Shown: positions 39,048-42,116 of the stretch, piece by piece | Position numbering within the stretch: position 1 is the stretch's first letter | How the letters are laid out: every line of letters starts with the position of its first letter | NCBI RefSeq assembly: GCF_030219325.1 | Contig: NZ_CP126625.1 | Coordinates: forward strand, 2,530,857-2,594,856 | Direction of reading: 5' to 3' | Length of the DNA stretch: 64,000 nt | Source: Geothrix sp. | GTDB taxonomy: Bacteria; Acidobacteriota; Holophagae; Holophagales; Holophagaceae | Program-made: the position numbers and the translations under genes | Notes under the pieces: generated by a model | Database searches by the model: none | Told to the model about the DNA's origin: nothing | What the model saw: the letters and a program-made list of their open reading frames with translations, nothing else

Positions 39048-39932
39048 ATGCAGCAACCGATCAAGCGTCTGGGTGAACTGCTCGTGGAGGGCGGGCTCAT
39101 CACGCCTGCGCAGCTCCAGAGCGCCATCACGCACCAGAAGATCGCCCGTGGACGCCTCGGCAGCAACCTGGTGGCGCTGGGCTACATCTCCGAGGAAGTG
39201 CTCATGGACTTCCTCAGCCACCAGACCGGCGTGCCGCAGATGGACGTGCGCAACCTCGAGGTGCCCGCGCAGGTCCTCAAGCTGGTCCCCCATCGCCTCG
39301 CGGATCAGTTCACCGTCCTGCCCATCACCACCCAGGAACCGAAGTCCCTGGTGCTGGCCATGTCCGATCCGTCGGACCTCAACGCCATCGACAGCGCGCG
39401 CTTCGCCTCCGGCCTCCACATCCAGCCCGTGGTGGCCTCGCACAGCGCACTGAGGAAGGCCATCTCCGATCTCTACCGCCGCCTCGAGGCACCGGTCGAG
39501 GCCCTGACCGTGGAGCTCGGAAAGGACCAGAGCCAGGATGACGCGCTGCCCGTCACCTTCACCCTGTCACCCCTGGCGGTTCCCACGCCCCCGCCGCCGC
39601 CGCCGCTGGCCTTCCCCAAGGATCCCTTTTTCGACGGCCCCGCCGCGCCCACCCAGCCGGTCAACATCGACCCCTTCGGCCTCTTCGATCCGACCGTTCC
39701 TCCGACGCGTCCGGCCCCTCCCCCCAGCCCGCCGGTCAACCCCGAGCTCGTGCACAGCCGCACCCTGAGCCAGAGTGTGCGGCGGCTGGAGACCTACCAG
39801 ACCCGCAGTCTCGTGCTGGGCCTCATCAGGCTCTTCCAGCGCCGCGGCGTGATCGGCGAGGATGAGCTCCAGCGGCTCCTGGCCAACCTCATCGAAGCCG
39901 GCGAGATCAAGGACGACGACAAGGTCGGCTAG
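39048..39932 (+). CDS. Standalone MshEN (GspE/PilB N-terminal) domain protein
   Basis: A 294-residue protein. Residues about 1-145 are a clean MshEN domain: LGELLVEGGLITPAQLQSAITHQK, LGSNLVALGYISEEVLMDFLSHQTGVP, LAMSDPSDLNAID. In type II secretion and type IV pilus ATPases this domain can bind c-di-GMP. Here no ATPase domain follows; instead there is a proline-rich linker (PTPPPPPPLAFP) and a short helical C-terminal domain (about 250-294). It may regulate pili or secretion in response to c-di-GMP. Its stop codon is the first base triplet of the lepA-derived repeat. Confidence 0.85.
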   Translation: MQQPIKRLGELLVEGGLITPAQLQSAITHQKIARGRLGSNLVALGYISEEVLMDFLSHQTGVPQMDVRNLEVPAQVLKLVPHRLADQFTVLPITTQEPKSLVLAMSDPSDLNAIDSARFASGLHIQPVVASHSALRKAISDLYRRLEAPVEALTVELGKDQSQDDALPVTFTLSPLAVPTPPPPPPLAFPKDPFFDGPAAPTQPVNIDPFGLFDPTVPPTRPAPPPSPPVNPELVHSRTLSQSVRRLETYQTRSLVLGLIRLFQRRGVIGEDELQRLLANLIEAGEIKDDDKVG

Positions 39933-40059
39933 TTGTCGACTTTGAGGATCGCCAGGAAACCTCGCCTCGCCGTGTCCCGGCTCGGAGCAGGGCTTTGTGC
40001 CCTGCCCGCTCGCCACTCGGCTGAGGCTCAGCCTGCGGGATCTCCACGTTGCCGATGGA
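39929..40059 (-). pseudogene. Duplicated and interrupted copy of the lepA 3' end
   Basis: 39929-39958 is identical to 40299-40328 (lepA stop and last codons). 40032-40059 is identical to 40334-40361, the next upstream lepA segment. Between them the copy has 73 foreign bases in place of 5, including the hairpin GCAGGGC...GCCCTGC. The copy is a non-functional fragment of about 63 bp of lepA split by a short insert. Confidence 0.85.
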
Positions 40060-40298
40060 TCTGACTCGGCCCTCCACCGGACGCAGGGCCACCGGCCCTG
40101 CTCCCACTCGCTACGCTCGCGGCGGTGGAGCCTCCCTGGGCCTCGCCCCTGCGGGGTCATGCGCTGCGCGCACGGTCGGCCTTCGCTCCATCTAACGCAC
40201 GCTCCGCGTGCTCCCACTCGGCTCACGCCTCGTGGAGATGGAGCCTCCCTGCTTCGGCCTCATCCTATTGAAGGCGGTCCATCGGAGCCGCTTGAACC
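40060..40298. repeat. Non-coding GC-rich palindromic tract between two lepA ends
   Basis: No gene is seen. It contains several hairpin-forming blocks (GCAGGGCCACCGGCCCTGC, ACGCTCGCG, GCACGCTCCGCGTGC) and two related units of the form CTCCCACTCG...GGAGCCTCCCTG (about 40100 and 40212). It looks like clustered REP-type sequences downstream of lepA. Confidence 0.55.
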
Positions 40299-42116
40299 CT
40301 AGTTGTCGACTTTGAGGATCGCCAGGAAGGCCTCCTGCGGGATCTCCACGTTGCCGATGGACTTCATTCTCTTCTTGCCCTCTTTCTGCTTGTTGAGGAG
40401 CTTCTTCTTGCGGCTGACGTCGCCGCCGTAGCACTTGGCGAGCACGTCCTTGCGGCGGGCCTTCACGTTGGTGCGGGCAATGATCTTGCTGCCAATGGCG
40501 GCCTGGATGGCCACGTCGAACATCTGCTGGTGGATGACTTCCTTCATCTTCTGGCAGAGGGCGAGGCCCAGGGCCTGGCTCTTGCCCCGGTGCACCAGGA
40601 TGGACAGCGCGTCCACGGGCTCGGCGTTCACCAGGATGTCCATCTTCACCAGGTCGGATTCGGTGTAGTGCTTCATGTGGTAGTCGAAGCTGGCGTAGCC
40701 CTTGGAGGTGGACTTGAGCTTGTCGTAGAAGTCCAGCACCACTTCGTTCAGGGGCAGCTCGTAGACCAGCATCACCCGGTCCTGGCTGAGGTACTCGAGC
40801 TTCTGCTGGAGGCCGCGGCGTTCCTCGCAGAGCTTGATCAGGCCGCCCACGAAATCCGTGCGGGTGAGGATGGTGGCCTCGATGATGGGCTCCTCGATCC
40901 TGGCGATCTTCTGGAGGGGGGGCAGCTTGGTGGGATTGTCCACGGAGACCTCGGAACCGTCCGTCAGGTGCACGTGGTAGCGCACGCTGGGGGCCGTGGT
41001 GATGAGGTCCAGGTCGAATTCCCGCTCCAGGCGCTCCTGCACGATCTCCATGTGGAGCAGACCCAGGAAGCCGCAGCGGAAGCCGAAGCCCAGCGCTGTC
41101 GAAGTCTCGGGTTCGTAGGTGAAGCTGCTGTCGTTGAGCCGCAGCTTGTCCATGGCGTTGCGCAGGTTCTCGAAGTCGTCGCTGGAGGTGGGGAAGATCC
41201 CCGCGAAGACCACGGGCTGGATCTCCTTGAAGCCCTTCAGCATCTCGGTGGCGGGCTTGGTGGTCAGCGTCACCGCATGGGTGACGGTGTCGCCCACCTT
41301 CACGTCCACCAGCTGGCGGATGTTGGCCACCAGGTAGCCGACCTCGCCCACGGAGAGGCTCTCCTGCTTGTCCATCTTGGGATCGAAGATGCCGATCTCG
41401 TCCACCCGGTGTTCGCTGCCTGTGGACATGAAGCGGATCGTGTCCCCGGCCTTGATCGTGCCGTTCATCACCCGGATGAGGTTCACCACGCCGCGGTAGG
41501 CGTCGTAGTAGCAGTCGAAGACCAGGGCCTGGAGCGCGGCGTTCGGATCCCCCTGGGGCGCCGGGATGCACTTCACGATCTGCTCCAGCACCTGGTCGCA
41601 GTTCTCGCCGGTCTTGGCGCTCACGTTCACCGCGTGGGCCGTGTCCACCAGGCCGATGACCGTGTCGATCTGCTCCAGCACCCGGATGGGGTCGGAGCTG
41701 GGCAGGTCGGTCTTGTTCAGGACCGGGAAGACCTCCAGGCCGTTCTCCAGGGCCAGGTAGGTGTTGGCCAAGGTCTGGGCCTCTACGCCCTGGGTGGAGT
41801 CCACCACCAGGATGGCCCCTTCGCAGGCGGCCAGGCTGCGGCTCACCTCGTAGGTGAAGTCCACGTGGCCGGGGGTGTCGATGAGGTTCAGGGTGTAGGT
41901 CTTGCCGTCCAGCGCCGGATATTTCAAGGTCACGGCGTGGGCCTTGATGGTGATGCCGCGCTCCCGCTCCAGGTCCATGTCGTCCAGGATCTGGGCCTGC
42001 ATGTCCCGGCCGGCCACGGTCTTGGTCAGCTCCAGCAGGCGATCCGCCAGGGTGGACTTGCCGTGGTCGATGTGGGCGACGATGGAGAAATTGCGGATCA
42101 GGGCTGGATCTGACAC
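40299..42116 (-). CDS. lepA: Elongation factor 4 (LepA)
   Basis: A 605-residue translational GTPase. G1 AHIDHGKST (14-22), switch region RGITIKA, G3 DTPGHVDF, G4 NKTDL, domains II-IV and the characteristic C-terminal domain with [33 protein letters not shown]. It back-translocates or otherwise aids stalled ribosomes. The start is GTG at 42116, with GAGG upstream; an open frame extends 61 codons further but is not homologous. Its last 63 bases are duplicated about 370 bp downstream. Confidence 0.96.

Follow-up and report, generated by a model that had tools for sequence, protein, structure and literature searches.

Integrative elements that enter the 3' ends of genes, guaA and other protein-coding genes among them, repeat the gene end directly, keep the gene intact, displace its original end, can stand in tandem copies and use an integrase. 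REP and REPIN sequences are non-autonomous hairpin repeats present in many copies and associated with a RAYT transposase. A third group, the small mobile palindromic sequences, is described in the passages available to us as short, structured and non-autonomous, with open frames that join in frame those of host genes; YPAL sites occur both empty and filled, with 3-26 bp of the target duplicated (PMC2229807); entry of short structured repeats into genes in frame is likewise described for small mobile sequences (PMC2229807, PMC2759123). Those passages make no mention of doubled gene ends, and among the open-access PMC papers listed by our searches no title or abstract opening describes repeats that bear a gene tail.

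The lepA-MshEN interval

The window, by which we mean the whole 64,000-nucleotide stretch analysed (G000:C1:2530857-2594856), lies in a 3.73 Mb genome assembled as a single contig. Within it an MshEN-domain gene (39048..39932, plus strand; Pfam MshEN, 5.3e-18) and lepA (40299..42101, minus strand; Pfam GTP_EFTU, EFG_C and LepA_C; start codon provisional) converge, both identified by Pfam. The LepA_C match extends to residue 597 of the 600 in LepA, which indicates an intact gene end. As a sequence-only reading of this DNA had reported, two blocks of that end recur exactly: CTAGTTGTCGACTTTGAGGATCGCCAGGAA at 39929-39958 and 40299-40328 (30/30 identical, spacing 370), and CCTGCGGGATCTCCACGTTGCCGATGGA at 40032-40059 and 40334-40361 (28/28 identical, spacing 302). 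The tail in use occupies 40299..40361 (minus strand, stop CTA at 40299-40301), and the outer, displaced tail consists of a stop-side block at 39929..39958 and an inner block at 40032..40059, also on the minus strand. Because the two tails are identical at 58 of 58 bases, they point to no foreign donor.

Between its blocks lepA has 5 bases, which in the outer copy are replaced by a 73-base insert (39959..40031, minus strand) that shifts the frame of the tail. That this insert is a hairpin, as had also been claimed, is supported by its predicted fold (z = -4.7; none of 200 shuffles folded equally well). Of the window's two tails only the outer one carries it; counting our own, 8 of 42 same-genus genomes have a match to it in their displaced lepA tail, and the proposed search for it elsewhere in our genome returned nothing beyond weak matches of about 18 bases. 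The insert and the stretch between the asnS copies discussed below have 12 bases in common (GCCCTGCTCCGA).

Most of the space between the two lepA tails is occupied by a repeat, here called E, which the sequence-only reading did not include and which makes this locus part of a pattern seen across the genus. In the window E takes a long form of 202 bp (40062..40263, minus strand) with nested hairpin modules, beginning ATGAGGCCGAAGCAGG and ending GGCCGAGTCA on the minus strand. A spacer of 35 bases (40264..40298, minus strand) separates it from the lepA stop and, judged by eye, resembles the spacers of other genomes that have the lepA duplication. From the spacing of the inner blocks and from genomes without a copy, the probable added stretch comprises the tail in use, its stop, the spacer and E, 302 bp in all (40062..40363, minus strand), and the putative target of E is the lepA ATGA at 40364-40367. 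An open reading frame of 101 amino acids spanning the added stretch (39997-40302) has no Pfam match, a search of 39800-40500 against Rfam 15 gave no match at an expect value of 1 or below, and a phage comparison of 39933-40298 gave no match.

Comparison of the lepA-MshEN interval in relatives, which the sequence-only reading had called for, indicates which of the two ends is original. Among the 42 same-genus genomes in which the lepA end could be placed, 12, our own included, hold a displaced lepA tail; for one of these (G016) the stretch taken as the native tail in the displaced-tail comparison was the wrong one. We found no displaced copy in the other 30, and in 14 of these the stop of MshEN overlaps that of lepA directly, as CTAG, TTAG or TTAA; the remainder have spacers, other repeats, N runs, a contig end (G033, with E at that edge) or a rearrangement (G032). 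Thus, the outer copy stands in the ancestral place and is the original lepA end, from which the lepA body is separated by 302 bp; the MshEN stop is ancestral, and the addition was made on the lepA side (40062-40363). The MshEN stop, TAG at 39930-39932, does lie within the CTAG that opens the outer copy, as had been pointed out. The further suggestion that the duplication had created this stop is rejected, since the same overlap is common in copy-free genomes. The earlier claims thus hold for the duplication and its split and fail for the origin of the MshEN stop.

An assembly artefact is unlikely, because the arrangement recurs in independent genomes, 12 of 42, and one of them (G008) is another single-contig assembly. 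Chance is also an improbable source of the copy: among 39 open reading frames called in the window, lepA is the only one whose last codons are truly copied in the 1 kb that follows, in what is a small control with some frames on the wrong strand and a second, higher-scoring match of low complexity. The 33-kb separation of lepA from MshEN in G032, considered as a possible island, is read as a rearrangement.

Other sequences also occupy this interval. A aggattaacaggatt...aatcctgttaatcctgtcc repeat lies between MshEN and lepA in six copy-free genomes (L037, L058, L063, L065, L070 and L074), with no lepA tail copy, and one locus (L048) has both the aggattaacaggatt repeat and a tail copy. In G021 (L067) an inverted repeat, ggtctgttttcaaagtgg...ccactttgaaaacagacc, stands between the two stops.

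Searching with an 82-base core located E in 10 of the 12 genomes whose lepA tail is displaced, plus G033; in the other two (G046 and G010) the displaced tail stands without it, perhaps because E was lost. Two tails of one genome resemble each other more than tails paired by permutation, with 20 and 6 differences against permuted means of 39.1 and 20.8 (P = 0.0001 and 0/20,000) in the nine of 12 genomes used, from which G041 and G016 were set aside as lacking a second block and G034 for a one-base shift. Genomes close to each other on the lepA tree differ in the presence of the displaced tail, and at least 12 state changes fall on this 41-genome tree, a weak one (10 of 38 branches starred) on which gain and loss are not separable. 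Remnants of the lepA spacer persist in G017 and G018. The low within-genome differences, the many state changes and these remnants lead us to read the lepA pattern as probable gain and loss by homologous recombination, with homogenisation of the tails.

Repeat E and its borders

On the gene-sense strand E reads RTGAGGCCGAAGCAGGAGCGGAGG...CAGGATGGGCCGAGTGA. An 82-base query has 11 matches in our own genome at an expect value of 0.001 or below and matches in 37 of 47 genomes of the genus; at 1e-6 or below, a search of 77 genomes of the order recovered the core in 41 of them, representing 6 of 11 genera. A strict pattern of E returned 18 matching stretches, possibly leaving out our own genome, all from Holophagaceae, Acidobacteria or Geothrix. 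As a short (< 200 bp) multi-copy repeat E resembles the MITE-like sequences; the window holds a 202-bp long form. In that copy two apparently related hairpin modules (about 40071-40138 and 40186-40251) seem to be nested in the short form.

The predicted structure of E is conserved across copies. Three helices show 88.8% standard pairs over 75 aligned copies, and 77 cells changed on both sides of a pair compare with 27.1 ± 3.3 in shuffles (0/500); the covariation score is 0.231, against at most 0.061 in slid registers. These values refer to 75 of 104 E sequences, long, shifted and some other rows having been left out, and to a structure predicted on the same alignment with edges edited by hand (one isolated pair dropped, two added). 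Rfam gave no match at the gathering score at the four loci searched (L105, L098, L133 and L149).

We read E in a sample of 91 loci holding 105 copies, which was taken best matches first and partly by hand, is not random and counts related species separately. Its 5' border is ATGA or GTGA in 47 of the 91 loci and its 3' border GTGA, GTCA or ATGA in 77. The element runs from RTGAGGCC to GGCCGAGTGA or GTCA; it has no TA ends, and its ends look partly inverted (TGA-GGCC). At one operon junction empty and filled sites can be compared directly: E is flanked by RTGA on both sides in 5 of 24 loci read, and E-free sites occur among the others, reading GGGAGGTACCCGATGAACC in G025 and GGGAGGTGCCCTGTGAAG in G044. 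The 24 loci come from 30 fetched and include some second, more distant copies of the gene; G015 has two E in tandem at this junction. The upstream gene there ends, by its look, in a 2Fe-2S-like subunit and has no family match.

Sorted by context, the 91 loci comprise 35 entered as tail duplications, 30 with E at the starts or stops of flanking frames, 14 with E inside open frames and 12 of other kinds. The 14 suggest insertion in frame of the type known from the Rickettsia palindromic element. At two loci (L140 and L143) E lies within a C-terminal extension of the gene, which at L140 matches RNase R (C-terminus). At four others (L101, L146, L152 and L089) it stands at a gene start (MKIAFIGTHGVGKTT-like) and supplies GTG or ATG after an AGGAG loop, in tandem at L101, L146 and L152. 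This hairpin loop, placed before GTG or ATG, looks like a putative ribosome-binding site.

A search for Y1_Tnp in our own genome gave no match, and 5 of 14 control genomes were positive; this lack of Y1_Tnp in our own genome speaks against a REP/RAYT origin of E, and our searches found no enzyme that would mobilise it.

Doubled ends at other genes

At 31 of the 91 fetched loci E lies next to a duplicated gene 3' end, with eight genes represented. A codon scan accounts for 26 of them (nuoD 13, asnS 3, peroxiredoxin 3, guaA 2, uvrA 2, lepA 2 and yjbQ 1), and the five further loci are lepA at L132 and L155, degraded nuoD tails at L082 and L087 and a lolD-like gene at L203, whose E stands past the second tail rather than between the two. 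The count of 31 follows from the 35 loci listed by hand, four of which (L077, L085, L141 and L167) were excluded because the copy had not been displayed base by base. The other 60 loci have no clear second tail, among them the uvrA-associated E of our own genome (L099), which had been dropped before the list of 35 was made. A flank score alone was not used to call duplications, as 105 random flanks reach 69 and tandem E also scores.

Just upstream of E an inner remnant of the gene itself is often recognisable by eye, from about 8 to over 30 bases long: about 8-10 bases at lepA, asnS, nuoD and peroxiredoxin, and over 30 at yjbQ and at one nuoD locus (L088). We read this remnant as a trace of E breaking into the gene, with an intact end added upstream later. 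We recognised no such remnant at guaA and uvrA, where E runs antisense. The two tails differ synonymously at asnS and nuoD, and at one peroxiredoxin locus (L175) they are followed by different terminator-like hairpins. The uvrA locus of G017 (L149; G017:C2, about 1277600-1278400) is a tandem array of uvrA tail and antisense E with a spacing of 348 bp, in which three tails finish in the same way and the outermost one diverges close to its 3' end.

Gene ends can evidently also double in tandem without E, judging from asnS and nuoD. At two nuoD loci (L080 and L211) the tail copy is preceded by intact inner sequence and not by E. Among the 30 of 42 matching genomes read at asnS, a second end without E occurs in G003, G010, G040 and G046, and also as the middle copy in our own genome. 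These E-free copies are separated by a GC-rich, hairpin-like stretch (L282, L285, L276, L290 and L291). Its counterpart in our own genome occurs once only, at asnS, and plain tandem duplication together with downstream DNA is therefore the simpler reading there. Both the GC-rich stretch and E are present at asnS in G011 and in our genome; G046 and G011 have two such stretches, with E further on in G011.

The order at asnS in our own genome is gene body, tail, CACCGC, E and old tail, followed by the stretch that in G003, G010 and G046 comes directly after the first asnS tail. This comparison suggests that an end was already in place when tail, CACCGC and E joined the gene upstream of it. A cleaner case for such an upstream addition is G012, where E precedes a tail; inspected by eye, this tail and the DNA beyond it resemble those of G024 and G029, which have one tail only. 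G012 and G034, in which E is degraded, have an unusual asnS end and its arrangement in common, as expected if these had spread by homologous recombination.

Origin of the arrangement and known systems

Across the genus E occurs as a repeat sited at RTGA; LepA is intact, and other conserved genes show the arrangement too. We regard the chances as about even that E inserted into the lepA end, that an intact end was rebuilt upstream by recombination, and that homogenisation and loss followed. E, as a short palindromic mobile repeat, would have entered at ATGA inside the last lepA codons, and the intact end (last codons, stop and short spacer) would have been restored upstream of it by homologous recombination with an uninterrupted lepA copy, leaving the interrupted old end behind beside MshEN. 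Selection would have favoured an intact gene end, ordinary recombination may have carried the arrangement between strains, and recombination between the two tails could homogenise them, build tandem arrays and delete the unit. The order, E first and the rebuilt end second, is the one we infer. Against strict dependence on E stand the asnS ends doubled without E between them in several genomes and the 2 of 12 lepA duplications without E. Additionally, a plain double crossover would remove E entirely and is simpler than the repair proposed.

The E-free doubled ends at asnS and nuoD make the opposite order a serious rival, which we consider possible though somewhat improbable: local tandem duplication of the lepA 3' end would have come first, and E and the 73-base insert would then have entered a free, unselected copy. 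It draws on the E-free duplications, including those of lepA in G046 and G010, on the identity of our own lepA tails and the similarity of lepA tails within genomes, and on the copying of internal gene sequence at yjbQ and nuoD L088. It is countered by the window's frames, none of which apart from lepA has a free gene-end duplication, by the 31 of 91 E loci at which E adjoins a tail copy, and by the different terminators at the peroxiredoxin gene. The synonymous differences at asnS and nuoD also speak against it, although temporary selection on the copy could yield these too. More doubtful still is the idea that E belongs to a class of miniature mobile elements able to enter the 3' ends of conserved genes because they bring their own, sometimes synonymously recoded, version of the gene's last codons and stop; such elements would re-target the restored site, giving tandem arrays, and would be moved in trans by a recombinase.

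We think it very unlikely that the unit is the remnant of a larger, integrase-driven element with an attachment site in the lepA 3' end, its genes since lost. Direct repeats of gene 3' ends, an intact gene and tandem arrays do resemble attL/attR, but the units are only a few hundred bases long, one repeat is common to unrelated targets, and the sole large lepA-MshEN separation, that of G032, has no second lepA tail, with frames listed at both of its ends only. Least credible of all is a functional 3'-UTR element kept by selection, as a terminator or a barrier between convergent transcripts, for although covarying hairpins stand right after the lepA stop, the displaced tail is patchy and close genomes differ in it.

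Set beside known systems, the lepA unit has the geometry of integrative elements at gene 3' ends: the end is repeated directly, the gene is intact, the original end is displaced and tandem copies occur. It differs from them in measuring only a few hundred bases and in using one repeat at many unrelated genes; the added stretch, at 302 bp, would leave no room for an integrase of its own. With REP and REPIN sequences E has in common that both are many-copy, non-autonomous hairpin repeats, and it differs in its RTGA border, its open frame and a genome without Y1_Tnp.

If our preferred reading of insertion and a rebuilt end is right, a repeat too small to code can sit inside essential genes (a tRNA synthetase, GMP synthase, complex I and LepA), where it would be tolerated since the gene has a complete end, rebuilt or brought along, next to the repeat. 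The same reading would also account for patchy gene-end duplications that annotation misses. As far as the passages available describe them, the MITE-like repeats (RPE of Rickettsia, ERIC/RU-1, YPAL/RU-2, Correia and RUP) are of the same kind as E, short, structured and non-autonomous, whereas E is placed at RTGA, often at start and stop overlaps, and frequently stands next to a duplicated gene 3' end. By its sequence features E fits the small mobile sequences, to which it adds the border at RTGA and the doubling of gene ends.
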